NCBI GenBank assembly: GCA_022478985.1
Contig: JAKSZP010002653.1
Location: forward strand, 186,001-250,000
DNA length: 64,000 nt
Direction: 5' to 3'
Source of the DNA: Massospora cicadina
Lineage: Eukaryota > Entomophthoromycota > Entomophthoromycetes > Entomophthorales > Entomophthoraceae
Of the stretch, positions 6,350 through 60,747 are shown piece by piece. The notes beneath the pieces were generated by a model. The model did not search any database and was not told the origin of the DNA. It was given only the letters and a program-made list of their open reading frames with translations. The translations under genes and the position numbers were made by a program. The number at the start of each line of letters is the position of its first letter. Within the stretch, counting starts at the first letter, position 1.

Positions 6350-6500
6350 TCCTTGATAGTATAAGCATCCACCCCAGTTTTCTCTACTATCTAAAAGGCC
6401 CAATCCATATATTAGCTAGATTACGCTTCTGTCCAAACCCATGCTGATTGTGAAATAGGACCAGCTCTCCTTCCTTAAAATTCCCAGGCTCACTACGTTA
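6350..6500 (-). pseudogene. Ty3-2 integrase C-terminal GPY/F-like domain
   Basis: The - strand reads EGELVLFHNQHG...IWIGPF, matching the G-D-x-V-L ... W-x-G-P-F pattern at the integrase C-terminus of Ty3/gypsy elements. It follows the core at 6593-7093 with a short gap containing frameshifts. Confidence 0.6.
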
Positions 6501-36062: not shown

Positions 36063-37577
36063 TGAGTTGGCATTTGCACTAATGATTGGCCCAAGCTTAT
36101 CTCAAAAATGGACTGATGAATCATTTGGTCAACCTCCTCTGGGTTTGAGCCTTATGGAATCAAATGAATTGTCATCATATGAGCTCTTTCCCTTAAGCGG
36201 GCAAGAATTACTAAAGGAGATTAAGATAATCATGTGATGAGACTCTCTCTCAACATCAGTGGCTGCCATCTGGATGCACTTGCACAATGGAAGACCAACA
36301 ATTCCAAAGTTTATCAAAGGAAGATGATAATCTTGACCTTCATACTGGATGAGAAGTGAAGGTTCAAAACAAAAAGGGCTCAAGATCCTCATCCACCAAA
36401 GAACACCTAGTCTCCCTATAAATATCAAAGCCTTAAAAAACAAAGATTGAAAATTGTTTAATGATTGACTGGATCTGAATCATCAGGTATATTAGATATT
36501 GTAGATGATGATATTGGTTTACGTCTAATTTAGTATATCATATATCTAATACATCAGCTATCAATATCAGAAAATATTTTATGTACTAGCGAAAATTTAG
36601 GATTCACGGCCTGGTAATTTCACTTAATTATATTAACTCTAATGTCCTGAGATTGTGGGCTTTTTGAGTAAGTTGAATTAGTTTCTAATATCAATTGAGC
36701 TACAATCAGATTAATTTCTAATTAGTGATATAGATTGCCTTGGTATGTGATACTTTTGCCCAGAGGAGTGATGGTATAGACATTTTAAGATGCGTCATAG
36801 ACCCCCTCGGGTTGAGACCATCTAGTACTAAAAAAAAGATGCGTCATAGAGATTTACTTGAAATAATTATGCTAGGAAGACATATATCCTGAGGCCAAGT
36901 TGGGTTACAGCAGGAAGCCTCAATGTGGATTAGACCCTCTGAAAACTTCACCATGAGCTTCTGGTTAAGCGGCGGTGCAAATCTAGGAGTCATGGGTGAA
37001 GATGGGAAAGAATCAGAAGTAACCCTATAGAAATCCCCGTGATTTATATAATAAACACAATCTGATTTGGTATTTTGAGGATACAAGCCTTTACAGATAC
37101 TACTTTTTTATTGTATTAAATAAAGAATTTACTTGTTGATCAGGAAGAATAGGGCAGGAAGCCATTGTACAAGTAATCAAAAGGAGAATACAGCCTCATA
37201 TCTTATCTTTATGGAGTTTATATTTCAAGAATAATTACCATCTGGTCTATTATCTTCATACTTTAGGAGTTCATAACTTCACCTTTAACCCCAGATGAAG
37301 AATTAGCCATCTGAAGTAGTAAAAACTTCAAAACTTATATTTGACATAGCAAATATATACCTATATTATCTCTTTACATAGTTATGATATTCAGTATCAT
37401 AACTCAGGATAGTGCATAAATATTTTACCCTGAAGATGCGAAAGTGATATGCCAGCGCCTCTCTCCAGCCATTCCAAACAGTCAAGCCACCCCAAAGACC
37501 ATTTGCAACTTCAGTTTTACTACTCTAGGCACCCCAATTTTTTGATATATAGTTTTTCTTAAAAAAAGCCAAAACCT
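36063..37577 (+). repeat. Ty3-6 5' LTR with an inserted block
   Basis: The first roughly 390 nt and the last roughly 260 nt match the 3' LTR. About 36460-37320 is extra DNA of unknown type containing a 34-nt micro-insertion (36802-36835). After the LTR, CTGGGTCTCACTACAGAGG at about 37579 resembles the primer sites of Ty3-2 and Ty3-5. Confidence 0.65.
36787..36850 (+). mobile_element. Micro-insertion 1 with 15-bp duplication
   Basis: The 34-nt insert (36802-36835) ends GAGACCATCTAGTACTAAAAAA. AAGATGCGTCATAGA occurs on both sides (36787-36801, 36836-36850). It is the longest of four inserts sharing this tail. Confidence 0.85.
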
Positions 37578-37634
37578 GGGTCTCACTACAGAGGAACACT
37601 GAGCTTTAACCAGTGAAAAAGTTAATCACAAAAC

Positions 37635-39760
37635 TTGGAAAATTACAATAATGAAAGATCTCCTTCTCCCAATGGGGAGATGGGCATTATTCAATGGGTT
37701 AATACTTCACAAATTGAAAGTGCACCCAATTACCCTGAGAGCCTTAAAGTTTGGGCTATCTTTGAGTTCAACCTTTCAACGCTGAACCCTAGCCAGTTCT
37801 ACCTCCAACTGTCACCCTACCCAATACCATCCAGCACCTTCTTTATGGGATCTAGTCCATTGATACCCACTTTAGTCATTTAGTGAGCTTCTACTGTCTC
37901 CTCCTAGATGCAAAGACTTATGGATAAAGCTGCCTTAGCTAGTAATGAGTTGGTTAAAGAGGAGGAACCCTACCTCTGGCAGTTTGTACATTCAGTCCTA
38001 GATCATCTCCTCAAATTAGTGAGATTATAACATCAAGAAATACTACGCCAGTTGGGATTGTACAGAGCTTTAACTCTAACCTGGTAAATTAAAAAACTGC
38101 CTCCATTTAAATTTTCAAAAAATGAGAAGAAATTTAGGACAACTGCCGCTTCATAAATGATGTCAAAGGTCAAATCGCTCTGTTTGACTTTAGATCTCTG
38201 GATATATGCATACCCACCTTACTTGGTAACTGCAATATGTAAACTCTAAGGTACATGAGTATGTACATAATGCCACTTTGGAGATGGCTGCCCAAACCTG
38301 AACTTTAGAATCCATATTGATGCACAAAATGTGTCACAGAAGCCCTGCTTGATCAGCTTCGGTGAAAGTGACTCTTTCACCAAAGGGCTATGGGGCCAAA
38401 AGGCCCCAAAGGCCCAAGAGGTCCTGAAGGGGCTGAGGGATGACCAGACTCCAGAGGGCCCCTTGACCCCCTGGTCGCCCTAGCTCACCAGCTCCCCCAG
38501 TTGAAGTCTCTGAGGACCCATATGTGGCAAGCTTCTCAAAAAGTTGGAGAACCTAAAGTAAAAAATGATAGCATCATTTTAGGTTGTAGAGTTCACCCTG
38601 ATGAGAGCCCCATTAATCCCGCCATCACCTTAATTGCACTTGACTTCAAAATGGACTTTTTAAAGGAGTTCATAAAACTTACTGACAAATGTCTTGACAA
38701 GATGAAAAGACAAAACTTCAAATCTGGATACCAGCAACATTTTGTGTGAGTCCAATATTTTAGATATGAAATACAAAACTAACCAAAAGTCTGGTGTAGT
38801 GTAAGAAATCAATATTGAAACAATTTGCAGGATGAACTAGAGAAGATTTGATAACAAATGGACTAGCAGGCCCCTCACACATATGGCAAGTCGGTGTCTA
38901 CTGAGCCTAGCCAGACTATCAATGCTGGCATCCATGCCCTCTCCACACCAATTAGTTCGTCTTTTAAGCCTAGCTTTGAAAACAATTTTGTAAGGCTAAG
39001 AAAGCATTAAATCCTTTTTAAACGTTTTTGAGAGTAATATAGAAGAGGTCACCAATTGCAAAGAGGTCAAGCATATCCATTCCTGCCTATCTAAGGAATC
39101 TCGTGAGTTTATGACCCCTACCTTTGTGAATGCCAGACCTGAGAACAGGTCAAGACCATTCTCATACAGGAATATGGCTCCAAGCAGACTCTCTAGTCAA
39201 AAACAAGTTTCATGGCCATACGCCTTAACAAAAAAGAAATTTCTTATGATTTTTCAGGTCACTTTTATGCTATTGCACAACCTCTAGTTTCTACTAAGTA
39301 AATTTCCTTAGATGACGCTACTAACGCCTTTCTTTCTGCACTTAAATATTGGCCTGATGTTCAACTTCATATGATATGACTTACGAAAACCTTTACTATC
39401 ATTCATGACATCAAAGAGGCACTCAACGAGATTTCTAAGGCAACTTTAAACAAGTACCCCTCCAAGATTTGAGATCCACATAGACCTAGAGTGCATGAGC
39501 TGGTGGTAATAGTAAAGAAGTACCCACTTTCTCTTACTGTAAAGGCCGCGACACATCAAAGAGAGTGCTATAAACGTCAGGTGGAAGTGGTAGAATGTGA
39601 ACTTCCAGGAAAAGAGAGGTTATCATGAAAACAGTGGCTTGTCATGATGACACTTCCATCATTATGTCTCTATTCAAGCTTGAAAGCCCTACATAGGTCG
39701 CCATTGGAGAACCCTAGAATTATGAGTTGAAGAATACCAAAAATAAACTTCTTAATTCTG
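37635..39760 (+). pseudogene. Ty3-6 gag remnant with Gly-X-Y patch
   Basis: From 38390 the frame reads M-GPK-GPK-GPR-GPE-GAE-G, five collagen-like triplets, in an otherwise AT-rich region. Near 39235-39360 a segment F-S-G-H-F-Y-A-I-A-Q-P-L-V followed by I-S-L-D-D-A-T-N-A-F recalls the capsid helices of fungal Ty3 gags. Many stops interrupt it. Confidence 0.5.
38361..38381. other. Perfect 8-bp hairpin before the Gly-X-Y patch
   Basis: GGTGAAAG and CTTTCACC flank a 5-base loop TGACT. Not U-rich downstream, so not a terminator. Role unknown. Confidence 0.4.
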
Positions 39761-40799
39761 CTTATTCTTATTTTTAAATCGCTGATGATTCTCACCCTTT
39801 TGCAACAATTTGATAGTTTAGCCACTCATGTTACAATTAAGGTTCATAAAGTTTCCGTATTAGCTATAATATATAGCAGTTCTCCAGTGAACAGTATCTC
39901 GTCCAAATTATAAAGAAATTAAGATTATACCCAATATGCCCATTACAGCACATATGGCATCACTGGGCCCAATGCACCCAATCAATAGGAGCCTTATTCA
40001 ATACTTTCACTCCAGTTAGAAATAATTATGTTAAACGCCTTAGTCATATCTCTGGACAACCTTAGCTATGATTTATTGCTGATCACCCCTAGTTCTTTGA
40101 GAATAACATTCTATCATTCATTACACAACAAAAAATTCCATCTTTGCTTTATACCCACATACCCTTGATGTTTGAGACATCCAAGGACAGCAAGGAGCGC
40201 GTAAAGGCTCAGGCCTGCTTATTGGACACTGAAATCTGGATTGATCAGCACAACTACTATGTTTGAGGCTCAATTTGAAATTAACCCCTCTCTTAGTGGA
40301 TTGACTAAAGAAAAGCATGTATATTTATCAAAGCCCAAGGTACTTCCTCCAGAGTCACAGATTATATTGGACACCTGAATCTAAGCGAAAATACCACCTG
40401 AGAGACTTATGGAGAAATTCAGGTCTGAAACTTCGTCTGTAAAAGAGGTTCAAATCTGCCAAGGTATCCTTGCCCCACCTACGCTGGCTCCAATTCTGTT
40501 TTGCTGCCCAACTTGACTCTGAAGGCCCATACCTTTAGACCAAGTACTCCAATTGCCTATCTACATTTAGTACCAATCAATGACATTGGTTGTGTCTGCA
40601 GGTTTTAAAAGCCTCTGTGACTTTAAGTTAAAAGAACCTTCCCACTGTGGCTCTAGTTAACATCTCCATAGAGGAAGGCCCTATCTAGAACAAAGGAGGA
40701 AGGTTGATAAGCTCTTGGAGGATATTCTGACCTTTTTTAACGTCCACTTATGACTTTAATAAGATAAAGGGGGTGATGCACAATGTAGAGATGGGGGAC

Positions 40800-41640
40800 G
40801 CCTCACCCATACGTTTGAGCCCTACAAAAAAAAGATTGAAGAGGTCCAGGTCGCCTTTAAACTCAAGGAGCTTTTGACTTTAGAGTTGTTGGCACCCTCA
40901 TAAAGTCCTTGGGAGTCTCTACTTCTGCTTGTTTAAAGAAGGATGTGGGCCATCATTCACCATGGATTATTGTAAGCTCAACGCAGTAACATGAAAAATA
41001 TCTACCCCATCCTTAAATCAATGAATAAATTCAGCTCCTAGAAGAGCTCAATATTTTTCTACAATGGATCTAGCCAGCGGGTACTGGCAGATTAATCTAG
41101 CTCCCAAAGATCAAGTCAAGTGAGCCTTATTGCAGAAAAAGGGCTGTTTGAACCAACTCTAATGCCGCAGGGGCTATGCAATTCCCCTGCCACTCCAGCA
41201 AGCTATGAATGGGCTCCTAGGTAATTTGAAGATGTCTTGCGTCCTAGTTTACCTCAAAGATAAACCATTTCCCAAAAGACTTTCAGCAGGCACCTATAGC
41301 ACCTCCACCAAGTTTTTGATCGTCAAGAGGAGTGTACTTGAAGCTTATACCTTCTAAATTCTCGTTCTTCCAACTGGGAATAAAGTTTATAGGGCACAAT
41401 GTCACTAAATGAGGAATTCAGCCTCTACCAGACAATGTTGCCGTCATAGAAAAAAATGATGTTGGCTCAAAGCCTTAAGTTCAAACAAGTGTTTCTAGGC
41501 ATGGTAGAATATAACAACAGCTCATACCACAGTTCGCTGACCTGGACAAACCCATGGTGCATTTGCTTCAAAAGAACGTTCCCTTCAAATGGAATCCAGA
41601 ACAGGATCAAGTTTTCACTCTTCTCAGGAACGCGCTAATC
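40800..41640 (+). pseudogene. Ty3-6 reverse transcriptase remnant
   Basis: Near 41060-41200: M-D-L-A-S-G-Y-W-Q-I-N-L-A-P-K-D (first catalytic Asp block), then P-T-L-M-P-Q-G-L-C-N-S-P-A. The Y-L-D-D region near 41245-41280 has decayed to Y-L-K-D. Same subfamily as Ty3-2 RT. Confidence 0.75.
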
Positions 41641-42050
41641 TCTCATCTTGTGTTGATCTATCTACACTTAGACCAAAATCTTTTTGTTAATTACTGACGC
41701 CAGTGGTATGGCCATAGGGGCAATACTGATCCAATTAGATGAACAAAAAATAGATTGTCTCTGTCATATCCAGCAAAAATAATTAAAGATAAACGGAATT
41801 ATAGCAATACTGAACATCAATGTTTATGTGTATTGCTCGCGGTAAAGCATTTCTGACCATACTTATATGGAGCCATTTCATTATTGCCATTAATCACGCT
41901 TCCTTAAGGTGGCTTCAACAGATGAATGCTCCCAACAGTCAATTGGCCAAATAGGACCTCCAGTTTCAAAGCTGCGACTTTTCTAAAATACATCAAGTGG
42001 GCATGACTCATTAAAACGCAGATAAGTATCCAGAATTCCACTCTCATGGT
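41641..42050 (+). pseudogene. Ty3-6 RNase H remnant
   Basis: Broken frames give A-S-G-M-A-I-G-A-type sequence near 41697, N-T-E-H-Q-C-L-C-V-L-L-A-V-K-H near 41810 (Glu block), and H-A-S-L-R-W-L-Q-Q near 41890. The order matches Ty3-2 RNase H. Confidence 0.65.
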
Positions 42051-42873
42051 ATTGTTGCCTGAAAAAGATCATTAATATGTGTCAGACATTTACCTTTGCA
42101 GACTAAAGATAAGAATGCTGTAGGTCAAGTTCTGCCAAAAAAGGGAAATGTTGACCATATGTGATATTCTGATGTCATTAAGAGCTTGCTTATTAAATTC
42201 ATTAATGAAAAAGTCGAGGAAATTGGCCAAAAGTCCCTGGCCAATTCTCAGTGGAACCCCGTTAATCAGGGAAAAACCAGTTTGAAACCTGTATGGGCAC
42301 AAATAAAATTGGCTGGTTGGATTACTCCAACATCACCACAGACTTTGGGGTTACCATCAAAAGGCACACCCCTGACCCCCACAAAGTCCTTCAATGCACC
42401 TGCACGGGGACCCTCTCCTTTTATAGGCTTGGCGGGGGTCCTCCCAGGTGCAAGAAATTTCTCAGGAGGTGATGGCTCAAGTTCATAAAACGTCACCTCA
42501 TGGGTACATTTGGGCCAATCAGAATTCCCCTTCCTTCCTTCCTCATCCCTGAAGTGAGGTTCCAAGTTATGATATGCTATTTCTGCATATTTCCTAATTT
42601 GGACTCGTGCAGGCTATTATGAACATATTCCCAAAATCTCCCTCAACCTTTGAAATTACTTTAGATACTAGATAGTTGGAGGTCAAGGAATATCTTTTCC
42701 CTTATCACACGCCTAAAAAGACTACAAAAATCCATTTTACTAAGCGCATTTTATTTAAATCTTTATTTTATATGAAAATATTTGTGGAAACCAGCTGGCA
42801 GAACGCACAAGCGAGCATAAATAAGCTGGTTTCCCACAATATGACTTGATTGGCTGGTTGGAACTATAAGTCC
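42051..42873 (+). other. Unassigned interval in Ty3-6 with an inverted repeat
   Basis: Roughly 820 nt between RNase H and LTR-I copy 2, with overlapping ORFs on both strands (42186-42488 and 42266-42565) that match nothing I know. At 42783-42838 the arms TGTGGAAACCAGCT and AGCTGGTTTCCCACA can pair around a 27-nt loop with one bulge. Confidence 0.4.
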
Positions 42874-44230
42874 TGTTGGGATTTTAACCAGATAAATTAC
42901 TCTGATAGTGTTGAAAATAGGTTTAATAAGTTGATGATAGTTGTAAATTTTTTTGAGTTTTGATAATTTAATTAATGTTATACAAACAAATTTGTGCTCC
43001 CCATTTGGTCAAGATGAGCTGTTTCAATCTGCTGGGTAAGAAAAGGGTTGAGGATCATCCCTGACAGGACATTGGTGAATTTTGACACTGGCGACTGAAG
43101 CTGAGGATGTTAAAATGAATATGATTGCTATGACTGATGGCGAATTACCAATTGGATGTTAATGATATATTAGGAAGATTCCTAATAGAGTTTTACCCCA
43201 CTTTTTAACCACCAGCGACTGATTCTAAGGATGTTGAACCAAAAATATAAAGTAAATAATTCAAATATCTGTTTTGAATTTTTGTGAGATATTGGGGATG
43301 ATTCTCAATGAGCATATTGGCCAATTTGACACTGGTGACTAAGGCCAGGGATGTCAATTCACATTTAATGTTTATTAAATCTATAAGTATGCTGAAATGA
43401 GTGTTTGACGTTGAGTTTTTGGGATTACTGGCGACTAAGACCAAGGATGATCAAATTAGCTAACAATTCTAAGATCAGCCGGCGACTTGGGTTGAGGCTT
43501 ATCAGTTGACTGGATATGGTATCAGAGGATATAGAAGTCAGGTATGAGAAGGACAATCCATCAACTAAAGACTGATAATAATAAAATATAACAAAAAATA
43601 AGCAATGGATGTTGCAATGAACCAATATGATGCATTGGACGTAGGAATAATAAATGAAGAGGGATGATTGTCAAAAAATATCTGATGATTGAGAGATGGA
43701 AATTAGTGCTGATGTTATTGAAAGGTGGGATACGCCTATAAATTGTTGAGTCATCTATAATAGATTATTTTCAAATCTTCAGACCTTTATTTGTTTTCTC
43801 TAACCAATTGTTGGGCGCCTACATTTCTCAGCTTTACAGTGGACAGAGATTAGCTTGGCTGGTAGAGGTGTGACGGAAGATCCAAAGAGGTTAGATGCTG
43901 GGTGAACACACCTGGAGTGGTCAGTGCAATCAACTCCCAATCTATAACTACAGAATACCCTGTGGGAACTTGCCCAGTCAATAAAGCCGGCGATGGAAAA
44001 GCAGGGATAAATCATGAGTTGGAGCATCAAGGGGTCATGCCGCTCAGGAATGGGAAGAACCACTGGTGCCCACCAAGAGGGGTAAATCTTCCAAAGTGAA
44101 GGTGTTCAACTGGATTAGGGTGTTGCCCGCGGATCTATAGGAAAAGGTCACCAATGACAATGAAAGAGCAATGGCCAGCAGACTTCATACTGTTTTCCTG
44201 ACACACTAATAGAGCTTTAGATTGTAGAAA
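42874..44230 (+). mobile_element. LTR-I copy 2, inserted in Ty3-6
   Basis: Aligns with 9852-11110, including start TGTTGGGATTTTAACCAG, the block TTTGTGCTCC(C/T)CATTTGGT, the roughly 120-nt tandem units (43101, 43225, 43345, 43441) and the block ACACACTAATAGAG near the end. No convincing target duplication found; the right end is uncertain by about 60 nt. Confidence 0.65.
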
Positions 44231-44369
44231 ATGGAAAATTTGCAATAAACTGAAACCCAAGAAATAATAAAGATGTTGCACTTGATAGTTCAGAACACTC
44301 AAATACATGATGGCATGTTATATAAATAAGTCTACAGAATTTGGCTGCCATACCTATGACTCTCCTCAA

Positions 44370-45350: not shown

Positions 45351-45407
45351 GTTAACCACGTACATTCTAGGTTTCTGCGCCCTTATGTCCCCTCCGCCAA
45401 GATACTG

Positions 45408-46028: not shown

Positions 46029-46106
46029 AAGCCAAAACGCTATACTTACATCAAAGGCGAATTAAACCTAGTTCTCTAATTGACTTATACTTATATATTT
46101 GTAAAT

Positions 46107-46159
46107 AAGAAACTTTTCTCTCCAACCATCTAGTACTAAAAAAAGAAACTTTTTCTCTC
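46107..46159 (+). mobile_element. Micro-insertion 2 in the LINE 5' UTR
   Basis: The insert CAACCATCTAGTACTAAAAA (46123-46142) is flanked by AAGAAACTTTTCTCTC and AAGAAACTTTTTCTCTC. The duplication spans the LINE boundary, so this event followed the LINE insertion. Confidence 0.8.
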
Positions 46160-46306
46160 TCGTTGCAATCACTTTTGCAGCTTATTCAATTCAAGTCTGA
46201 TTCTAGTTTAATAATCTCACAGAGGAGATTAGTCTGCGCCCATGTCAGGGAGCAGTTGGGTAAGTAAGGTAAGAGGAGCAGGTGGTAGGCCCACGGCCTC
46301 AAACGT

Positions 46307-47640
46307 TTGAAAACGCCCCAGAGAAACTGGCGGAATAGAAAAAAATATAAAAAAACTGGCGGTCACTATTTACCCAGAAATCCTCACTTGGCAAGCGCGA
46401 TGCAACTGTACATCAACACGCCGCACTCCCAACCACTCTCGTCAGTGGAATATGGAGTCAGTGTGTTTCTGGACATTCAACAAACAGCTCTATGGGAAAA
46501 ATTTTGTGGGGATGTGCACACTTTTTTCCTGACTGTGGTGTACATCGCACCTCACTCCATGTCACGTGGTTGGCTGGACCTCAGTTTTGAAAACAAGGAG
46601 GCAGCAGACAAAGCTGCTGTGGTGCATGTAGTGATTGACCTCTCCAAAGGGCAACGGGTTGTTGAAACCAAATGCACCAGATGGTCAAAATCCAACCAAA
46701 TTTTCCTCACGTTTGACTTTTTGCCTACTACAGTAAAACTAGCCATTTTGGAGCAGCACCTGAAAGATGGTCTCACCATTTATGGCGAAATACAATCTTT
46801 TGAGATGCAACGCTTTATGCTGATGCCACACCTGTGCACCAGCAAAGCCATTGCAGTTCTGACCCCAACTGAGGAGATTGCGAAGGACCTAACCCAGATC
46901 CCGCACTCCACATATATCAATATTTAAGGGCATACCACCCACCCTTTCTGGGTAATGACGGACAGCGCACCCCCCATCTGCACCAACTGTGATGCATTTG
47001 GACATAAGGCACATGCATGCCCCACTAAGGAGGGCATCACATTCCAAGAGCACCCCTCGGTGGCCATGGCCAGCGGAGAGGCACACTATGAACCAACTGC
47101 AAGCACCAAAGAGGCTTTCCCATGGGGAGCACAAGGCTGCTACCTACTGGTAAAACCTATTTCCCCGCAAGAGTGGAAGAAGGCCAAGTGGCTGCAGGAC
47201 TGCAGCCAAGGAAGCGGCCAAAGTCACCACTGCTATCCCACACTCCCAACGCCAGGAGGACATCAAAACCTTCGCGGCAGAAGAAACTTGGGAATCCATC
47301 AACCAATCAGATTGGGAAGCCCATGCTGATTGGGCCACCCAATCTGAGGATCCGATGGGTGACTCAATTTCACCCAATCTTTGCAACCAAGCTCCAGTCA
47401 AAACTGACTTGGGGTCCAACCTACCTGAAAATTTTTACAACCTGATTGTTGGTGCACTGAACTCATCCGCACCATAAAAAATTCGTTCAATGTTGGGGAA
47501 ACAAAAAGCAAAGGCAAAAACCAACGCGAACCTTTCTGCTAAAATCAACAAAACTACTGATAGCATTGCTGCAAACACCCACGCCACTGTGAAAGCCCAT
47601 GGGGATACAAAGGAGGCTGGTGGGCCTGGGTGCCCACCCC
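46307..47640 (+). pseudogene. LINE ORF1 (RNA-binding protein)
   Basis: One frame is open from 46307 to 47329 except for a TAA at 46925-46927. The N-terminal part may be an RRM-like fold (H-S-M-S-R-G-W-L-D-L-S-F-E-N-K-E-A-A). A CCHC knuckle I-C-T-N-C-D-A-F-G-H-K-A-H-A-C-P lies at 46976-47023. A shifted frame continues as an acidic, Lys/Thr-rich C-terminus to about 47640. ORF1 coats the LINE RNA. ORF2 begins shortly after. Confidence 0.8.
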
Positions 47641-47657
47641 CTCACACCTAAGGTGCA

Positions 47658-48560
47658 ATGGGGGAAACCTTCACTTTAGGGACGTTGAATATTGCTGGAC
47701 TCAAGGACTTGCCATCCCAAGCTAGGAAACCGAGTTTTTTACAAAAAAATTTACCCGTGGATATCCTGGCCATCCAGGAGTCCCACTGTTTAAGAGGTTC
47801 TGAGGATGCTTGGAAAACCATGCTCCTCCCATCCCTATCCTTTTGGTCAGAGCACTGCGGGGTGCTAGTTCAGAAAAACAATTTTTTCAAATTTTTATCA
47901 TTGGAATCCTTCCTCAATGGCTGAGTCCTCATTATCACTTTCTTGTGGGCTGATGTGGCACATGCTATCATCAACATCTATGCCCCAACCTGTGCACGAG
48001 AATGTCAGGAATTTTTCTTGTCAGTCAAATCCCTCCTGTTACCCCCAGACCCTTTTGTAGTTGGCGATATGAACTGTTGGCTAAACACACCAATGGACCG
48101 TTGGCCTTCCTCCTCCCATGCCCCCCAGGGTCACGTAAAACTTCATGTTCTAAAGGCCACCCTTGGGTTAATTAATGCGCTGCCGCGGTGAGCCCTGCTG
48201 CTCAAAAACATGATGTGACCCCACATCCACAACGGCCAATTAAGGTCCATGACCCACATAGACCTTATCCTTATGCCGGCAAAAATCCACCCTCACATTG
48301 CCCACTTCCAAACAACAAAAATTGAATTCTCCAAACACCGGCTGGTCTCAATAACCTACCACCTACCTGTCACAGTGGCTAGGGCTCCGCATTGGTGCAA
48401 ACTCCGCCCACCTAAACTCGCGTCAACAGAATTTTCCACTTGGGTGGAATCAGTGACTTTAGCAAAAGAGTTTATTACACCATTTTGCGTGGACCCAATT
48501 TCCACACGGTCAGCCTTCAAAGAGGATACCATCTGCCACTCTCGCCACCTCTCCTCCTGA
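47658..48560 (+). pseudogene. LINE ORF2 endonuclease domain
   Basis: The ATG at 47658 follows ORF1 closely. AP-endonuclease blocks in order: T-L-N-I-A-G-L (Asn), A-I-Q-E-S-H (Glu), I-N-I-Y-A-P-T, V-G-D-M-N-C (Asp-x-Asn), H-I-D-L-I-L (Asp) and S-K-H-R-L-V (His). Broken by stops at about 47922 and 48189 and by a frameshift. It nicks the target DNA to prime reverse transcription. Confidence 0.88.
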
Positions 48561-48869
48561 TGCTCACAAGCTACATCAACCATCATCTCGCGTGCTCTGG
48601 CAGAGTTGGCACACCTGGAGTCCAACATCCCAGCCACAGGATACAGCCCTGCATGGGGCTGGAAGTGGGCGGAGGCAGCCGCCCACCTCAATGCGCTCAA
48701 AAGGCACCACAAACTCCGGGTTTGTGTTCAGTACAGGGCCAAAAACATTACAGAGGGTGACAAGTGCACCACATATTTTTTTAAAAAATTTTCGCACCAC
48801 GCCAGAGTGTGGCCTGCACACAGGTGTGAAGATTGGATGATTCCATCGCGGATACGCCAGCTGAAGTGG

Positions 48870-50410
48870 CAATCAAAATACAAAAGTATTACTCTGAGTT
48901 ATACCAATCTGATCCAATCCAGCTGGCTGAAGTGGCGGAATTTTTGACCAAACCCACATCTGCACCATTTCCTGATACCCAGAAATAATGAATTTGATTA
49001 CTCTAAATGAACTATGGACAGCCATCCGCGGTGCACCAAATTGGAAATGCCCAGGCCCAGATGGCATTCCATATGAATTATATAAAAAGTACTTCAAATA
49101 TATATCCCCACTGCTGCTTGCCTCACTTAACCAGAGCCTTCTGGAAACGCGCCTCCTACCAGGAGGACAAGAGGCCTTCACCATCACACTCTTCAAAAAA
49201 AGGGGACAAGCTAGACTTAACCAATTGGCGCCCCATTTCTCTAACAAACACATACACCAAAATTTTAACAAAAATCATGGCTAACCGTTTAGGGATTGTA
49301 GCATCTGCCACCATCTCCCCAGAACAATTCGGTTTCATACCCAGAAGGTCGATTTGGGACAACGTGCACTCTGTGGCTAACGCATGCCAGTCCACAGCCT
49401 CTGGGGCTCTTGTATTCTTGGACCAACAGAAGGCCTATGATAGAGTAAACTGGGAATACCTCAGGGCCTGCCTCCATCAATTCTGCTTACCCCCTCGCTT
49501 CATCAACTGGGTAATGCTGCTCATGGAATCTGCAACAATGGCAGTGCGTGGCCCTGGCTTCCTAACATGTGTAGTCCACCCTCAAAGGGGCTTGCGACAA
49601 GGGGACCCCCTTAGCCCATTCTTATACAACTCCAGCCTTGACCCACTACTTCGAAACATGAATGCCTAACTCACTGAGGTCCATGTGCCAGGCCAAGTCC
49701 CAGTCAAGATGATGGCGTTTGCAGATGACTGTGTGGTTGGAATGCCTAATAATAAAGATGCACGCGCACTTGAAGCTCTCATCCAGGAGTATTCCCAGGT
49801 AAGTAATGCTGCACTGAATGCTTCCAAAACTGAAATCATCCTCCTTGGTCGGTATCAAACCTGCTGGGCCCCAGCGACCAGTGCCCAGCCTGGCCCATCT
49901 GCTCACACACGTGCTCGCCCTCCCAGCTCACCCCACACCACCCCACTGGTGCTCCCCTTCGTGCCACGCCCTACCATAGGGCTGGTCCGCCATCTGGGCG
50001 TGTGGGTGGAGGCAGGCGGGTACACATCAGCAGTAAAGGAAAGTCGTATTCTAGATAACATGATGAAGTGCATCGCCTCCCTCAGAGACTACCCTACTTC
50101 CCTTACTGGCAGGGTTGTTTTAGAAAATTCTATGCTCCTCTCCAAAGTCTGGTTTGGAGCCCACGCCATCCCCTTCACCCCAAGCTTTTTCAAATCCTTG
50201 TATGCCCTTCTGCAAGGATGGCTATGGTCAGGCCGCCCACCACCAGTACGGCTAGAGGTCATGTTTGGCCCTCATCATCATGGTATTAATGGCCTGCTTG
50301 ACTTCAAAGCCCATGCTGCCAAGATCCTGGGCACCTGGATTGCGGCCATCACTGACCCTATGCTCCCCTCCCAACACTGGTCCCGCGCGGCCTGCTCCAA
50401 CTTCTCCTGA
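48870..50410 (+). pseudogene. LINE ORF2 reverse transcriptase domain
   Basis: RT blocks in two main frames: C-P-G-P-D-G-I-P-Y-E-L-Y near 49050, N-W-R-P-I-S-L-T-N-T near 49220, S-P-E-Q-F-G-F-I-P-R-R-S near 49315, L-D-Q-Q-K-A-Y-D-R-V-N-W near 49420 (first Asp), G-L-R-Q-G-D-P-L-S-P near 49590, and M-A-F-A-D-D near 49710 (catalytic F-A-D-D intact). One frameshift near 49200 and stops near 49669. The layout is that of the L1/Tx1 group. Confidence 0.92.
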
Positions 50411-50639
50411 GCCTTGGGCCTTAACAATCCATCGAACCCTCACTCCCAATGAAATACCTGGCTTCACACCCAATGGCCACAGGTCCTCACGGGACTAAAA
50501 CCCACTACAAACGAATCCTCCTCTCCATGCGGAGTGCTGAGTGGAGAATTCATATTAGCTGACACACAGCCCAGTGAGGCCGCCCCTCTCCTCAGTTCAC
50601 ACAAGAGGTACAGGGGCTACCCATCCAAGATGGCGTGAT

Positions 50640-51284
50640 CCCCACACGGCCCCATGTCCTATCCATGGTGGACTACCTGGACATGATGGACATCCCTTAC
50701 TCCATTGAGACCCAAAAAACTATCTGGAAATACGCATACCATCCTCTGTTGCAGCCTCAAATCCATTCCCATGTGTGGTGCTGCCTGAGGCGGGTGTACA
50801 TATGGCTGAGCGCTCTAACGCTTTACACTCATCCTGCGTCATGTGTGGCCAGTATGGAACGCTGTTCCACCGCCTGGAGAAGTGTCCTAACTCTAAAGTG
50901 ATATGGCGTGAAGTTCAACGTCTGCTGGGCCATGATCAAACACATCCCTTCAGTTTGTCAAGAGATATGTTTGCTTTATCAATGGCCTCCTCCCTTCCAC
51001 CCTCCCTCCGTGCTCTGGTGGTTGCAATCGCCATGTTGACTATCCACACGATTGTCTTGGATGCCATCACAGGCTCCACCCCCACCCTCCCAGAAGCTGT
51101 CCACAGATTCCAGTCTCTTTTGGTGGACCACTTTAAGGCGTGGATGTTTGGATACCTCCCACCGCGTCGCCAACAGCTGGTCTCCTCCTGGTTCCCAATT
51201 TGGTTCATCAAATCAGACCCTTTCCTCCACACGTGTTCAATTGTGGCTACGGCCTCTTCACACGTTCCCTCCCCCTCCCCATAA
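50640..51284 (+). pseudogene. LINE ORF2 C-terminal Cys-rich domain
   Basis: Frame 50775-51284 contains C-V-M-C-G-Q-Y-G-T-L-F-H-R-L-E-K-C, the C-x2-C-x7-H-x4-C motif at the C-terminus of L1-type ORF2, followed by a hydrophobic helical tail. Stop at 51282. About 145 nt of 3' UTR follow. Confidence 0.8.
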
Positions 51285-51442
51285 GTGGCGTTCCCGCTGG
51301 CAACAAGAGATAGCATCGCTTCTCTGGGGTGCCTTCCCTGTTACTAAGCTTTGTCTCTTTTGGGTCAAATTTGGAAGTGTCCATCCCATGGTCGGCCTTA
51401 CTCACATTAAATTTAAAAATTAAAATTTGTTTGTAAATAAGA

Positions 51443-53580: not shown

Positions 53581-53799
53581 AATGGACTTTCCAAGATGCC
53601 CATTGTTATTGCATTGTATCCTTTTTTTGGGCCAAATGTTTGAGAAAATGAAGGCCTGCAAGTATAATGATGAGAAGCTTACCATAAGACGCACATTGAA
53701 CCAATTACTAAAGAACATGGAAATGAGTTTAACACACCTTACTGAAGTTAAAGTTATATTTAAAGATTTTTATACCTAGTCCTATCCAAACAATCGTCA

Positions 53800-54870
53800 A
53801 TAATTATGAAAGCTTGTTGTATTGATGGCCATGGCGGACTGGTCAAAACCCAGAAACAAACTTTAACAGAGCTACCATTGGAAGCCCAGGAGAAATATTA
53901 TCCAGGAAATTTTGATGAAACGTGAAGAATGACAATCAAAACATCCTTTCAAGGTCTCCACTATCTATCAATTAATAAAGTCACTTTTTGGCTTGACATA
54001 CTATCTCAATTATTATTATTAGACTTTTTCCTATCAGCAACTTTAGTCTCTGATTCATTTTTGTGGCCATCAACCACTTGACTAAGTGGGTCAAGGCTAA
54101 ACCATTTGCAATGTCAGAGCAGTCACTTATACTAAATTTTTCATGTAAATTATTGTTCATAGGCACAGGATCCGCAGGTTATTGCAACAGACATTGCTAC
54201 CAATTTTACTTCTAGGATAATTACTGAACTAATCAAATCATTCAAATTAGAGGGGTCATAGATGCCCCTTACCATCTAGAGGCTAATGGGAATGTTGAGA
54301 GGAAGAGTGGAATATTAGAGAAAATCTCTGCAAGTCTGCTGCCACTTCCCCATTCAAGTGGACCCTTTATGTTGGCCAACAGTATTTGCCTATAGTATTA
54401 TTATCATGGTACTAGAATGTCCTCATCATTTCAAATACTCTATGATCGGCAGCCTGCCTTGCCCCCATTGTTGCACTCAGTCATAGAAGACAAGGATTGG
54501 ATCTGACCCAATAATTATCTTGCCGTATTGGTCTGGGCATTAATTAATATTAAAACAAAAGCTTATGGGGCTTCCTTAACTAGAAAAATTAATCCAAATA
54601 ACTAAGAAAATATGCATAGATGAACCATACACAAATTCAAGAATGGTGACCAGATATCATAATGTGATACATATTGGTATGTAAGAACACATAAAAATGC
54701 AACTCTTTGGAAAAGACTTACTGTGATCTTAGAACTTCAGCCTTTGACGTCTATACCTTCAGACACTTATTAATGGGTTATTTATTAGGAAAGATTCACA
54801 AAATAAGTTTAAAACCCTACTACGGCAGTCAACCTCTTAAAGAAATTACTTAAAGAATGAGTTGAGTCAA
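53800..54870 (+). pseudogene. Ty3-5 integrase remnant
   Basis: Near 54060-54100: V-A-I-N-H-L-T-K-W-V-K-A (first acidic position now Asn). Near 54170-54215: Q-V-I-A-T-D-I-A-T-N-F-T. A Y-H-L-E-A-N-G-N-V-E-R block near 54270-54300 marks the catalytic Glu. Same arrangement as Ty3-2. Stops throughout. Confidence 0.65.
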
Positions 54871-55429
54871 GAAAGGAGGCATGTTATCAAAAAGATTTAC
54901 TTGACTTTTTATACTATCTCTCTACCCCTTTATGTAGTTTATAAACTATTAAGACAAACGCAAATGTTCAAGTCATTAACATATACCACTTTTAGTCCAA
55001 TTGTTTGAGCGTTCCATCCATTCCAGTTAACCACACAATGGTTCTAATCCTTTATTCATTCTTTTCCTGTAAATGGGTACATTGTGTTTATATGTACTCA
55101 TTGTACCCATTGTATACCATATTGATTGTGTTTTTAAGATCTGGACATTGTTGTTATGTGGGTAAGAAATTGACAATTTCTTTTTGATAATTATCCTAGT
55201 AAAAAAAGACTTTTTAAAAATATATCTAGTATTTGGGAAGTCGTTCCTGAGGCAGAAATTTAATATACCAGGAATTATAGAAATTTATTATTGTGTAGCT
55301 TTTCTATACAATATTCTGAAGAAACGACCTTGTCAGGGGACATAGGTCATATAATCAGGGAAGCTTGAAGAAGCACCAAGGAGGAAAAATAGCCTGTGCA
55401 ATATTGTGCGTTTGTTGTGCACTATAATA
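54869..55429 (+). repeat. Ty3-5 polypurine tract and 3' LTR
   Basis: CAAGAAAGGAGGCA precedes TGTTATCAAAAAGATTTACT at 54882. The LTR ends ATAATA at 55429, where the 5' LTR has ATAACA. Confidence 0.75.
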
Positions 55430-55950
55430 TTAAAAAATCTTTTATTTGTTACCTCACCTTGACAGCTCTAACTAATAGTATATATGAACAAAAATTGTAT
55501 TTTAATACTTACTGGTGTACCTATTGATTCCCTAATACATCAAATACCTCGGCTTATAGGCCTAGTTTCATTTCACTATTGTATTAATTTATTATAAACC
55601 TTGTCCCTGTTCCAGCGTAAACTATCTGTCAATAGGTTTAGCATTTATTATTTTGGTCATTTTCCAGTGTCTAGGTTATAAATGGCTGAATGCTATCTTA
55701 ATGTGAATGTTTAAGCCCTAGGCATACGTTCTATTAAACTATTTTGAATAAGTGCAACCATTATTCAATTTTAAGTGCTGTTAGTTGCACTAATGAGAAC
55801 CCTGGGAATGAGAGATCATATCTAAGAGGAACTTAGCATTTGGAAGGTGATCTTGTTTTTTGAACTTTCCAAAGTCTACACAAATATAGATATAATCTGC
55901 TGTCACATACCCACTGTGAGTAAACAAAACCATGTTGTGATTATTTTATA
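55430..55950 (+). repeat. Ty3-7 repeat, left copy, part 2
   Basis: Continues the repeat cut at 32261 and aligns with about 59910-60450: shared blocks include CTTGTCCC, TCAATAGGTTT, GTGTCT(A/C)(G/A)GTTATAA and TGAATGCTA(T/C)CTTAA. It also shows that Ty3-5 is the inserted element. Confidence 0.6.
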
Positions 55951-58330
55951 TTTAGCCAAAAACTTTTTGTGACAACTTTAAAAGTTTCCCTTTTTTCTAC
56001 AAGTGTCTGTTTCATACTGATTTCTTGTTAATTAGTGCGACTTAGCTGTGCTAAATGCATTTGATTCCAAATTGCTAATTGCAACGTCTGGTGGTTACTA
56101 TATAAAAGTTTTTGCATCACTTTTCACCTACTTTTCTAATATGGATCACAATATGAAGACTTGGTATTCCTTAACTGACCCATACCATGATATCAACTCC
56201 TTGATAAACCTTTTAAGACCACAGACTAATGATAAATGATTTGATCTCAGCCCTTGGTGCTCTACCTTAAAACTGTCCAGGCTCAGGACCAACACAATGC
56301 GGAGCTTTGCAAGCCCACAGTTCCGTCGAGCCAAATCTACAATTATATCAAATATGGCTCTTGACAATGTAACCACCCTCATGTGGAGAATTGTACCTTA
56401 GTAAAATGGTTTTTTACCTTGGAAACTGACCCCAACAAGTTTAATACTGATGGCAATGAGGCAATAATGGTGCCAAAATTGCCTAAAGTCCTTTACTTAA
56501 CTTCTCTTTCTGGCAGTTTCAAATATCCCCATATGCTAGAACACCCAGTTCAGGATATACAAGCAACTGCTCTTAGCGATGCTCCTTCATCTTATACTGG
56601 CGCTACCTCAGCAGCCTCAGATACTTAAATTTAACCCCATTAATTAACAATATGGTTTTTTTTTCAAGTTTTTGAGACTAACTGGGAATCAGGTCCTAAT
56701 ACTTATCATCAAGTTAGCCCTGTGAACATGTATAAATTAAATAAAAAGGAAATATTCCCATCTTCAAGCGGTTATTTAAACTTTATATGGAAAATGAAAA
56801 TGACCAGGCCAAGATAACATGTTAATTAACATTTTAGATCTCGATAGTCAACAATTGGTAATGACAAAGATTTGTGACACTGGCATGTCTTACAATAATG
56901 CAAAAGAAATTATATGGATGAATTTGGCGAGGAAAAATTTACAGTAGGACGAAAACCTCCTACCCTTTTTATAAAACTTTAAACTAGAGGAAGAAGTTCT
57001 AGCCTTTGTTGAACATTTTCCCACGAGGCCCAGATGTTGTAGGGGATATGGTTCTGAGTCACTATGATTAATAGATTGCGTCCTGCCATGCCTGTGAACC
57101 TTATAAGACTTACTAATCCATGCTATCATTCTTGGTTTTGAAAAATCACCATAAATAATATGGTGGATTACCATTGTCGCTGCTTTCTTACTTTTGAAGT
57201 ACCGTACATTAAATATTTTTAAAAAAGAATATAATATTTATTATACGGCTTTGATTGAGGACAACAATATGGGAAAAGCCATGGAGAAATAAATTGTATA
57301 TTTTGCCTCTGCTAACAGTTCAATAATCTATTTAAAGAATCAAATCATAAAGTTTACGTCTTGCTGGTATGTTAATAAAGAGTTAGGATGCTTTAGCATC
57401 AAATATGCATCATCTATAATGATCATATGTTAGCTACGCCTCCGCGGCTACAGGATAATATGAACTTATTCATCAAACAGAGATTGGATGACATAAGACA
57501 TTGTTTTTAAGACACCTAGTAAGACTCTTGTTGTGATAATATTATGTTTTATTGATATACAATGCTTCATCCACGCAACAGCATCAATCCCTATAACTTA
57601 TTTTATAATGATCATGAGGATCCATCCTCAGTCTTACACCCCTTAGTTGGCAATAATCTATACCTGTGCCCAAGCGGCCCATGATGCAAGAGGATGTTAA
57701 ATAATTCTTAAAATAGGTCTTAATATTCAACTGGTTTGATTTTGTAACTTGTGTAAAAAGTAAGACATCCTCCCAATTAGTCATCAGAAAAAACCTGGAG
57801 TTATTAGATCCTTTCTAGAATACTTTAGGACCAAATTAAATTCCGCTGCAATTTGGACAAAGCTTAACTATGGTACCTGGCAATCAAGCCTTTATGGTAA
57901 CAGTATTAATCAGAATTACCTGATAAATTATATGTAAATTCTTCCCTAACTCTGCCAATTTAAAACAGATCCCATTAATGCATCTGATGCAATCTATATC
58001 CATCAGTTAGAAAGCAAAGTATCTTCTGCAAAAACCTAATCTTATTTAAATCATCTAAAAAGGTATCAGCTTACTGCCTTTATATATGTGTTGCTATTAA
58101 AGAATAAATAAACTAGAAATTACGGTGAGTTTTCCAGTTTAAGGGGTTTCTATAAAAGTATGGTAAAAAACCACTCAATGAAAACCCTCTGATCTGACCC
58201 ACCAGTCCAGACCTATCTGGCAAAGACCCTTAATAACTGGGGAAAAACAAAAAAGGATTGCAATAAAATACTGGCCTTTTAGCCTCAGCTTCTTGGTAGC
58301 CTATCTTAACCACTCATTTTTGAATTCTGG
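55951..58330 (+). mobile_element. Presumed internal region of Ty3-7
   Basis: Lies between two similar repeat copies in the same orientation. A frame at 56383-56628 could be gag (V-K-W-F-F-T-L-E-T-D-P-N-K-F) and degenerate sequence near 58130-58290 (G-F-Y-K-S-M-V-K-N-H, then W-G-K-T-K-K-D-C-N-K) resembles the end of Ty3 RT. No integrase is seen. The assignment as LTR element is tentative. Confidence 0.4.
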
Positions 58331-58500
58331 TCATTAGTCAAGTGGGGAGAGAAGTTGCTATTGGTCAGACTAACCATCTGAATAGTTATTTAATTACTTT
58401 ATTTTATAGTTTTAACCAATCATAATGATAAAGGCTTCAAACAATCTATGCTAATTTTAGGTTAATATATAAATTGTTTTTCTTATGGATTACTCATCCC

Positions 58501-58986
58501 TCACAACCTTTCATGGAAATGGAAGAAGAAGTTTAGACTGGCCTGCCAGTCGGGATGCATAAGCACCCAAAAAGCAAGCCAGAATGCCAGAGGCATTGCC
58601 AACCAAATGACTTGATATGGAGCCGTGCATTGTAAAATGATGAAGTGTTGGTGCAGCAACATAGTGAGAATGATCCCAATGACAAACCACGCTAAACCCA
58701 CTCCTGACCCAGGGGGTCTTGCTGCATGGGGTGGAGTCACTGAGATAGTTTTGATGAGATCCTCGGCATATGGAGTCATTTCAACTGGGGTGGCAAGGAG
58801 ACAAATTATCTCTTGCAATTGGTGGACATAAGGCCACAAGATCCCTGTATATTGCTGCCGGAAGTTAGTGATAATGGGGTTGTAGAGCCAAAAATATTGG
58901 ACTCGCTGAGCCCAATTGATGACAGAGGGGGCTATAGTGACCAAAAGTACTGGTGAGCCCATCCGGTATATGGACCAACAGGCCAC
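58501..58986 (-). CDS. Hydrophobic LTR-encoded ORF, 161 codons
   Basis: The frame lies almost wholly in the LTR, downstream of its AATAAA signal; the stop codon comes from the flanking DNA. It predicts several membrane-spanning stretches, e.g. G-L-A-W-F-V-I-G-I-I-L-T-M-L-L and V-I-W-L-A-M-P-L-A-F-W-L-A-F-W. The Ty3-1 3' LTR has the same frame near 25440-25515 (W-I-A-V-P-E-V-F-W-L-G-F-W). I recognise no family. It may be a chance ORF; see the finding on third-position differences. Confidence 0.3.
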   Translation of the reverse strand: MACWSIYRMGSPVLLVTIAPSVINWAQRVQYFWLYNPIITNFRQQYTGILWPYVHQLQEIICLLATPVEMTPYAEDLIKTISVTPPHAARPPGSGVGLAWFVIGIILTMLLHQHFIILQCTAPYQVIWLAMPLAFWLAFWVLMHPDWQASLNFFFHFHERL

Positions 58987-59877
58987 CAGGGAAATGCCAT
59001 CAGGGACGTGGTCAGAAGAAAAAATAAAAATTGTTTAGTTTTTTTAGTAAATTTTTATTGAAGAAAAGGAAGAAAATCAACCAACAATTTTCTCAGTGCT
59101 ATGCAACTGAGAAAATAGTGGTCAATTGGGGTAGTGACAAGCTGAGATCAGGTCCTGCAATTTTGACCTAACCAGCAAATTGTTCAGAGTTGGGTGGGTT
59201 TGTTCCTTGAGAACTGACATTGCAAAATTTGGCAGTGGGCCGATTTTCTGTCAGTTCAACCTCAAACGTCCAAACCAGGATTCAACTATGTTTCTGATGG
59301 TTGGCATGACAGCATTTGGCCTGATGAGTGATTGGAATCCCCCAAGGCCACCCCACATAGGGGCAGGTCCATTTGGTTGGGAATGGGTTTGGGATGCCCA
59401 ACCCGCCCACGCTTGGTCACTGAACTGTCCATTCAGTCAATGACATCACATCAGCTGCAACGCCCAAATTACCAACAGAGGGCTTTAACCCTCATCAATG
59501 GCGCCCGATGTAAGTTCTATCATCATATTGATTGAATTGAAACTGTCAGGTGTTCTGACTGATATATCAGTCTTCATGCCTTTCCAGTCATTCAAGATTT
59601 GGCATTGGCCAGATTGTCACTCAAAATAGATCTGACTGATTTCAATTTGACAATCTTGGTACAGATTTTGCTAAATTCCTGCAACAGTTCTGCCAAGGTG
59701 AGTGTGGGTACTGGGGGTGAAAACCAAAGTGGAAGAGCTGTTACCCATTGCTCATCTACTACATGAGCGAGATCATCCTGAGCAACAAGGGGTACCGCCA
59801 TCCTCTTTGGTGTCTTTTTACTTGGGAACGGGAAGATGGCCCAATCAAGAGCCAGGGGACGTTCCCCAGGACTTACA
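58509..59877 (-). mobile_element. Solo LTR of Ty3-1 family
   Basis: CAACC flanks both ends (58504-58508, 59878-59882). On the - strand it starts TGTAAGTCCTGGGG and ends TTCCATGAAA (Ty3-1 LTR end: CTCCATGACA). AATAAA appears near 59050 on the - strand. It is longer (1369 nt) than the Ty3-1 3' LTR (990 nt), which has internal deletions. It carries two open frames, 59592-59888 and 58501-58986. Confidence 0.88.
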
Positions 59878-60470
59878 CAACCCCACATTTTTACATGTGC
59901 TTTATCAATTAATAAAAATATCTCATTATTAGCTACCTTGTCTTGGTGACTATGATTAATGAGTCATGAATAAGGGTCAATCTTTAATCAACGATGGTAA
60001 AAACCTTATTAATTAGTACACTAAATAAAATTACCTCCACAGACCTAGTTATTGTATTACCTTTTATAATATCTTATTAACTACCTTGTCCCCAGCCAGC
60101 ATAAACTAGTCATCAATAGGTTTGCATTATTATTTAGCCATCTGCCAGTGTCTCAGTTATAAGTTGATGAATGCTACCTTAAGTAAATGCATTAAGCCTA
60201 AACATTTGTTTCCTTGACATATTTTTTGATTTTATGCAACAATACTGCAATTCTTGAGAGCTGGTATTTTTGCCAATGAGATACTAGGAGTGAACAACCA
60301 TATTTAGGAGGAGACATGTAAAGCCAAAGGGTTCTTGTTTTTATTTTAGCTTGCCAAAGAAGACACCAATTTTAATTATAACTTGCCTCCCCAAAGTAAT
60401 AGTGAGTATCAAAACTATGGTGTGCTTATTAAGTCATAATAGAACCTTTTACAACTACTTTCAGGACAAG

Positions 60471-60523
60471 AAGAAAGATAAAACCGTGACCATCTAGTAC
60501 TAAAAAAAGAAAGATAAAACCGT
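60471..60523 (+). mobile_element. Micro-insertion 3 with 17-bp duplication
   Basis: The insert GACCATCTAGTACTAAAAA (60488-60506) is flanked by AAGAAAGATAAAACCGT at 60471-60487 and 60507-60523, identical copies. Confidence 0.9.
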
Positions 60524-60697
60524 CCAGATAAAAGAGTGGGGAGCCAGAAGACCCAGATGTAAGAATTATAGTAGTTACAATGAGTGTTAAAAATAATCTT
60601 TAATTTTCCAAATTTTTCATCATAGCTAAATATTAGCAATAACCAAAAATAGTGCTTATGAACGTTAATAATCACATAATACACAAATGATATCTAT

Positions 60698-60747
60698 AAA
60701 AGGTGAGGTACTGAACCATCTAGTACTAAAAAAAGTTGAGGTGCTGA
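60698..60747 (+). mobile_element. Micro-insertion 4 with 17-bp imperfect duplication
   Basis: The insert ACCATCTAGTACTAAA (60715-60730) is flanked by AAAAGGTGAGGTACTGA and AAAAGTTGAGGTGCTGA (two mismatches), suggesting it is older than insertion 3. Confidence 0.8.

Follow-up and report, generated by a model that had tools for sequence, protein, structure and literature searches.

Micro-insertions in the Massospora cicadina genome are probably extreme 3'-end copies of one L1-like LINE family with a two-state insertion profile

Tiny inserts that share a tail and end in an A run lie between direct repeats in a 64-kb stretch of Massospora cicadina DNA (the whole stretch analysed, hereafter the window). 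Its LTV1 gene identifies the stretch as M. cicadina. We conclude that these micro-inserts probably stem from a single L1-like LINE family, of which they copy the very 3' end and whose insertion has two states, one abortive and one processive. An earlier note on this DNA had described four such inserts with flanking repeats. All four stand where it placed them, and their duplications were confirmed: those of insert #1 are identical (15/15), those of #2 differ by one indel (16 vs. 17 nt), those of #3 are identical (17/17) and those of #4 carry two mismatches over 16 nt. The sequence CATCTAGTACTA occurs exactly four times in the window, in inserts #1–#4. The note had also held that the window contains no longer copy with this tail; this was wrong, as a diverged 47-nt copy (insert #5) lies on the minus strand. 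The features are as follows.

36787..36801, plus strand: left target-site duplication of insert #1, AAGATGCGTCATAGA
36802..36835, plus strand: insert #1, 34 nt, a 28-nt body ending CATCTAGTACT plus 6 A
36836..36850, plus strand: right target-site duplication of insert #1, identical to the left
46107..46122, plus strand: left duplication of insert #2; as judged by inspection, flank at its start and otherwise the 5' end of another LINE
46123..46142, plus strand: insert #2, 20 nt
46143..46159, plus strand: right duplication of insert #2, with one additional T
60471..60487, plus strand: left duplication of insert #3, 17 nt
60488..60506, plus strand: insert #3, 19 nt
60507..60523, plus strand: right duplication of insert #3, identical to the left
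60699..60714, plus strand: left duplication of insert #4, 16 nt
60715..60731, plus strand: insert #4, 17 nt including 4 A, its end within the A run ambiguous by one base
60732..60747, plus strand: right duplication of insert #4, 2/16 mismatches
30304..30320, minus strand: 5' duplication copy of insert #5 (new), in element orientation
30257..30303, minus strand: insert #5 (new), diverged 47-nt copy, a 41-nt body plus 6 A
30240..30256, minus strand: 3' duplication copy of insert #5, 1/17 mismatches

Insert #5 was detected by nhmmer with an E-value of 1.9e-15, using a model that was built from all five copies and that its members therefore match by construction. It was also found independently of that model, including by a blind scan of both strands for a run of at least four A followed by a direct repeat within 160 nt (score of at least 10). 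The scan returned five places, namely four family members (the new minus-strand copy among them) and a weak candidate at 46324; insert #4 escaped it, being too diverged. Eight single-strand shuffles yielded one match in total. Tandem Repeats Finder listed no array with the insert tail in the window; a match of the tail to a satellite unit had been named as a possible refutation. Repeats beside inserts #1–#3 were considered as in-window empty sites; their alignments end before the inserts.

Do such duplications accompany the tail elsewhere in the genome, as the earlier note had proposed to ask? The tail, CATCTAGTACTAAAA, occurs 34,069 times genome-wide, and its reversed control six times. The first 100 listed places, all on contigs C1–C7, served as the detailed sample. 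A script identified target-site duplications at 89 of these 100 places, compared to 1 of 100 in a swapped-flank control, and the tail thus does carry flanking duplications. Their median length was 16 nt, with 71 of the 89 falling between 14 and 18 nt and no single fixed length.

The body length before the A run (set by hand for two of the 100 places) was 9–43 nt in 91 places, 44–124 nt in none, and longer in nine. In finer bins, 71 bodies measured 9–28 nt, none 29–35 nt and 20 36–43 nt, while the nine long ones were of at least 125 nt. Per nucleotide, stopping was about 1,300-fold likelier within the first 43 nt than further on. Members of the 36–43 nt class share a start point to within a few nucleotides, immediately 3' of AATAAA, such that this sharp second stop adjoins the motif; by inspection, insert #5 starts at the same place. 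In the shorter class, the matched part takes all lengths between 9 and 19 nt. Of 70 short-class inserts, 20 depart from the parent element before their 5' end is reached, through extra bases or point differences, and 24 of 50 clean junctions had 5' microhomology of at least 1 nt. Exact 15-mer counts over the genome fall from 34,069 (tail) to 14,253 (19 nt or more) and 2,181 (past AATAAA); these describe a rough survival curve only, as exact 15-mers overlook sequence variants. The exact-tail search is biased toward young copies and is blind to bodies below about 9–11 nt.

The earlier note had sought a longer parent that ends in the same way, and one exists in this genome. It is a LINE of about 6.4 kb that terminates in the insert sequence, followed by a short A tail, and its family includes young copies. 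Five of the nine long places were read further, and their duplications enclose bodies of 6445, 6441, 6091, 6072 and 501 nt; the 501-nt copy (L008) is also the parent LINE, at 99%. At two other long places, L074 and L090, the sequence is known to about 127 nt. Among the next 20 copies, taken from the list of those extending past AATAAA (two are also among the nine), the parent LINE was present at ~1 kb in 19 of 20 and at 4.8–5 kb in 18 of 19 testable cases. More than 500 nt from the 3' end, 23 of 24 long copies proved to be the LINE at the closer of the distances tested. The 5' end region was read in 12 of the next 20 copies, and 11 of these 12 reach element base 1 or 2. This second, complete state is not absolute because some long copies are incomplete: L008 has only its 501 nt, L017 is without the first 236, the L122 site is not LINE at ~1 kb, and the L155 site is LINE at 4.8 kb and not at 5.8–7 kb.

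The parent encodes an AP-type endonuclease, an L1-like reverse transcriptase and a zinc-binding domain, recognised as Exo_endo_phos (3.1e-10), RVT_1 (3.6e-33) and zf-RVT (2.4e-06), the endonuclease being scored on copy L031 and the reverse transcriptase on copy L034. The latter matches human L1 ORF2p with an E-value of 4.3e-37, compared to 2.4e-28 for the best R2. A LINE within the window itself (~46111–51429) was rejected as parent, its 3' end having no listed match to the inserts; the reverse transcriptases of the two elements share 45% identity across 158 aa.

At the target, the side of the first nick is T-rich. The target motif reads AA, then G in 44 of 79 and A in 56 of 79, i.e., TCTT/ with no clear AAAA; the A-run boundary is ambiguous here, and the A columns are inflated because the sequences were aligned on the first base other than A. 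L046 and a neighbouring paralog supplied the one natural empty site, with flanks that are 90% and 92% identical. The earlier proposal of target-primed reverse transcription by LINE machinery, halted almost at once, is supported because the duplications, the A tail, the T-rich nick side, the existence of a parent that shares the 3' end, and the empty site all accord with it.

We propose the following course of events. The LINE endonuclease would nick the bottom strand, preferably at TCTT/, and the T-rich 3' end would act as primer on the A tail of the element's RNA, whereupon reverse transcription would begin. In some nine of ten integrated events, it would halt after 9–43 nt of body; even so, a cut in the second strand some 16 nt off would follow, and joining of the stub would leave a normal target duplication. 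In the remaining events, the enzyme would clear the point at the 3' edge of AATAAA and then usually reach the first base of the RNA. Presumably the enzyme stops while it is reverse-transcribing the LINE RNA; possible causes are a 3' hairpin, the initiation complex itself or a factor bound to AAUAAA, this last roadblock being suggested by position only.

The predicted 3' hairpin was no more stable than shuffled sequences at three lengths (z of −0.14, 1.58 and 0.11), nor were the hairpins of window copies (z of −0.41 for #5 and 1.18 for #1). For covariation in the 100-place sample, one side of the stem is fixed by the search pattern. Separately, the stem of insert #5 shows by inspection a paired change, GATG/CATC to GGTG/CACC, in this one copy only.

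The templates might instead have been short, A-tailed 3' RNAs of the LINE (degradation or processing fragments, or products of RNAi) that the LINE enzyme copied in full, so that the size classes would be RNA ends, not stops. We regard this as unlikely. The shared start of the 36–43 nt class directly 3' of AATAAA is indeed cleavage-like, and in mammals tRNA halves, as well as truncated U3 and 5S RNA, are reported to occur joined to LINE-1 (PMC13174262). However, the continuous spread of the shorter class over 9–19 nt would be unusual for a defined RNA, and the sampled bodies share the 3' end of the full LINE, as the search pattern demanded. Stopping on full-length RNA and copying of fragments with the same 3' end are inseparable by sequence alone. 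SINEs often have 3' ends in common with LINEs, and the small size of the inserts might point to a SINE or tRNA-like RNA distinct from the LINE but with the same tail, of which they would be truncated copies. Such a template, which the earlier note had entertained, found no support given a 6.4-kb parent LINE that ends in the insert sequence, and it is highly improbable: long copies are LINE in the proportion given above, as is the 501-nt copy; the 100 places include no copy of 44–124 nt and no recurrent non-LINE head on the tail, where a SINE would carry an RNA-derived head with a Pol III promoter; and the window holds no tRNA by ARAGORN and no gathering-level Rfam match. Other known RNAs, such as 5S, were likewise rejected as sources, with only two chance-level Rfam matches around insert #5 (E of 2.3 and 4.7).

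Break repair can yield small templated insertions with duplications, and an origin outside retrotransposition (filler DNA left where staggered breaks were repaired, footprints of DNA transposons or an assembly artefact) was weighed on that account. We give it almost no credence. The single common 3' end and the A run stand on one side only, with the target motif on that same side; the reversed pattern is nearly absent; and duplication length varies. The same-ended parent LINE and the empty site also disfavour it, and M. cicadina is reported to be effectively without DNA transposons (PMC11105155). A 23-base pattern had no match in viral or genome contig collections (0 each), from which records of this genome were possibly excluded, and searches of the literature for strings of the insert sequence matched only human-cell papers that are unrelated by title.

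The two-state length profile was unexpected, and we read it as abortive vs. processive reverse transcription. With less assurance, we lean toward a true checkpoint between initiation and elongation: synthesis would be abortive until about 43 nt are cleared, just short of AAUAAA, and almost perfectly processive thereafter; stubs of ~10 nt would still trigger second-strand cutting and joining; nine of ten insertions would fall below ordinary repeat annotation; and shorter, A-only insertions may outnumber them. Were this so, the second-strand step would need no completed cDNA, since such stubs would be cut and joined. Two questions of LINE biology are at stake: what carries reverse transcription past its start into elongation, and does the cut of the second strand await a finished cDNA? 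A single genome that preserves natural insertion products by the tens of thousands, with exact stop positions, duplications and target sites, makes both accessible to statistics. These results also suggest that LINE activity gauged from annotated copies misses most events in the M. cicadina genome, and that elsewhere such insertions escape any survey that starts at 50 bp.

Our literature search, judged mostly on titles and the starts of abstracts, found none at that level describing such a length distribution. In LINEs of the UnaL2 type, the reverse transcriptase recognises a 3' stem-loop. The possible hairpin near the 3' end of the Massospora LINE, with its paired stem change in copy #5, is reminiscent of these elements; in contrast to them, it is without energy support and the paired change is confined to a single copy. 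The Massospora inserts resemble mammalian 5'-truncated LINE-1 copies in target-primed reverse transcription, the A tail, an AP endonuclease, an L1-like reverse transcriptase and some 5' microhomology. Duplications are shared as well, those of full-length L1 peaking at 14–16 bp in one survey, which covered insertions of 50–10,000 bp only (PMC2912911); stubs would be missed there because of the 50-bp floor. Whereas a broad spread of truncation lengths is typical, though not defining, of mammalian L1, 91 of the 100 sampled Massospora copies end by 43 nt, none fall at 44–124 nt and the long ones are mostly complete; the motif, too, is TCTT/, with no clear L1-type TT/AAAA. The Magnaporthe retropseudogenes, which are LINE-made and involve template jumps, are likewise unusual products of fungal LINE-type reverse transcription; they are reported to be chimeras of different transcripts, whereas the Massospora stubs are single-source (PMC2104539).

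The four micro-insertions that the earlier note had located in the window were confirmed. Each is a short sequence ending in CATCTAGTACTA plus an A run, enclosed by two copies of a 15–17 nt local sequence, and CATCTAGTACTA occurs in the window exactly four times, always as one of these inserts. A fifth, diverged copy was also identified:

36802–36835, plus strand, insert #1
46123–46142, plus strand, insert #2
60488–60506, plus strand, insert #3
60715–60731, plus strand, insert #4
30257–30303, minus strand, copy #5, 47 nt, diverged, ending in GACCACCTAGTGCTAAAAAA

Copy #5 is flanked by a 17-nt duplication whose two copies differ by one mismatch. When both strands were scanned blind for A runs with a direct repeat after them, five places in the window emerged, four of them members of this family; the control gave one hit summed over eight single-strand shuffles. 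Insert #2 spans the 5' junction of a second LINE (about 46111–51429; by inspection, a 12-nt duplication, TTTGTAAATAAG, lies at 46099–46110 and 51430–51441), and it is therefore younger than that LINE. Inside the same element, at 46324–46362, AAACTGGCGG is repeated around an A-rich 19-nt stretch, which could be a further micro-insertion or chance.

The window, on contig C2291 of the 1.47-Gb assembly searched, also holds an LTV1 gene (about 27.1–28.5 kb) that, over the 78% of the query that aligned, has 100% identity to a protein of Massospora cicadina. Long direct repeats (12605–13500/17753–18639 and 19413–20061/20645–21292; 87% and 92%) surround or adjoin frames for a Ty3-type reverse transcriptase, RNase H and integrase, and are probably LTR-related. 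The M. cicadina assembly is described as 1.488 Gb, from Nanopore and Illumina reads (PMC9584336), with 92.4% repeats, 6.3% L1 LINEs, a LINE expansion that postdates Ty3, and DNA transposons effectively absent (PMC11105155).

Genome-wide, the tail was sought as an exact 15-mer, CATCTAGTACTAAAA, a search that old copies and bodies (inserts without their A runs) below about 9–11 nt escape. It was found 34,069 times (17,000 forward, 17,069 reverse), against six occurrences of its reversed-letter control. This density is about 23 per Mb; four copies in 64 kb put the window above average. The abortive share of insertions may be a lower bound.

The first 100 listed tail places, unselected and all on contigs C1–C7, were examined for the flanking duplications that the earlier note had proposed looking for. 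The 95 nt left of the A run and the 27 nt right of it aligned locally with a score of 10 or more at 89/100 places; with right flanks swapped in from other loci, the figure was 1/100. Median duplication length was 16 nt (14–18 nt in 71/89). Body lengths were sharply partitioned: 71 were of 9–28 nt, none of 29–35 nt, 20 of 36–43 nt, none of 44–124 nt and nine of 125 nt or more (exact binomial interval for the long fraction, 4–16%), the bodies of L089 and L065 having been assigned by hand. All 89 scored duplications belong to the short copies, of which there are 91; the remaining two, L015 (9.0) and L065 (9.5), fell under the cut, and L089, one of the 89, was scored on a wrong pairing (9 nt by eye). 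Among equal-length duplications, 56/79 were perfect and the mean pairwise difference was 1.8%, a figure lowered by the exclusion of pairs scoring below 12; many copies are therefore young. The 42-nt insert at L046 sits, with its duplication, within one of several related local repeats, and the adjacent unit, about 1.3 kb off, has matching flanks (90% and 92% identity), one target copy and no insert. Such related units, at ~1.3-kb spacing, are a useful source of natural empty sites.

A longer parent with the same 3' end, which the earlier note had suggested seeking, was found as a full-length LINE. For five of the nine long places, sequence was followed upstream as far as the duplications, which lay at 6445, 6441, 6091, 6072 and 501 nt. 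Copies L031 and L034 have identical starting bases, L032 has that start preceded by 12 extra bases, and in L035 the first 236 bases are missing and an internal gap lies close to the 3' end. The 501-nt copy is also the parent LINE, as are the visible 127–131 nt of the other four places (L074 being the most diverged); aligned parts of L031, L032, L034 and L035 are 91–99% identical. The encoded products comprise an AP-type endonuclease (Exo_endo_phos in L031, E 3.1e-10), a reverse transcriptase (RVT_1 in L034, E 3.6e-33) and a zf-RVT domain (E 2.4e-06). The parent and the second LINE of the window are separate families, their reverse transcriptases being 45% identical over 158 aa. In L031, a tandem 376-bp repeat lies close to the 5' end (element positions ~512–1264); L032 apparently has one unit fewer.

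Copies that extend past AATAAA are mostly complete. Twenty of these (list places 4–23, including L067 and L095 of the 100) were sampled in 201-nt pieces at two distances: 19/20 were still the parent LINE at about 1 kb, as were 18/19 testable copies at 4.8–5 kb, one sample lying beyond the contig end. The expected 5' end was read in 12 copies; 11, including L067 and L095, reached element base 1 or 2, and L155 had no LINE there. The stopping rate is about 0.039 per nt in the first 43 nt vs. 0.00003 per nt beyond, a rough ratio of ~1,300, the latter rate being based on four incomplete long copies and approximate hand-set exposures. Genome-wide 15-mer counts point the same way as the sample's length profile: GTTGGGACCATCTAG, present in bodies of 19 nt or more, occurs 14,253 times and CAATAAACATCGATG, beyond AATAAA, 2,181 times (control, 1 each), rough counts in that sequence variants escape an exact match.

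From these data, it is as good as shown that the micro-inserts descend from the parent LINE via target-primed reverse transcription. Exact matches to the parent spanned 9–19 nt in 66 of 70 scored short-class inserts and 22–28 nt in four, and extended to the insert's 5' end in 50. Microhomology of 1 nt or more was present at 24 of these 50 clean junctions, vs. 25% expected with equal base frequencies (P ~0.0004). The target's top strand reads AA, then G (44/79) and A (56/79), i.e., TCTT/ on the bottom strand. The earlier note had offered two routes, reverse transcription halted almost at once or a very small RNA template; the chief rival is still that short RNA fragments served as templates. 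Since the 3' end is common to all and the 5' ends are scattered, the simplest reading is that the stubs came from the normal reaction when it aborted.

Why stops all but end after ~43 nt is a matter of inference. The last ~40 bases can form a hairpin (a GATG..CATC stem with TCCC..GGGA inside) whose 3' arm covers the first stop zone. In copy #5 the stem carries a paired change; the predicted stability of this 3' hairpin was no better than that of shuffles. The 5' ends of the 36–43 nt class cluster to within a few bases at a single point, (A)CATCGATGAATCC, immediately 3' of AATAAA, where, by inspection, copy #5 starts as well. Among the 18 members correctly placed by script (L029 is without the motif and L065 was mis-scored), offsets were 0 or 1 in ten and within five bases in the rest. 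Because this second stop coincides with AATAAA, a polyadenylation factor bound to the RNA is a candidate roadblock.

The titles and abstract openings returned by a literature search contained no LINE with such a length distribution. A survey of human and chimpanzee insertions took only those of 50–10,000 bp (PMC2912911). The parent's reverse transcriptase itself aligned with human LINE-1 ORF2p over 510 residues (E 4.3e-37), with R2 behind (2.4e-28).
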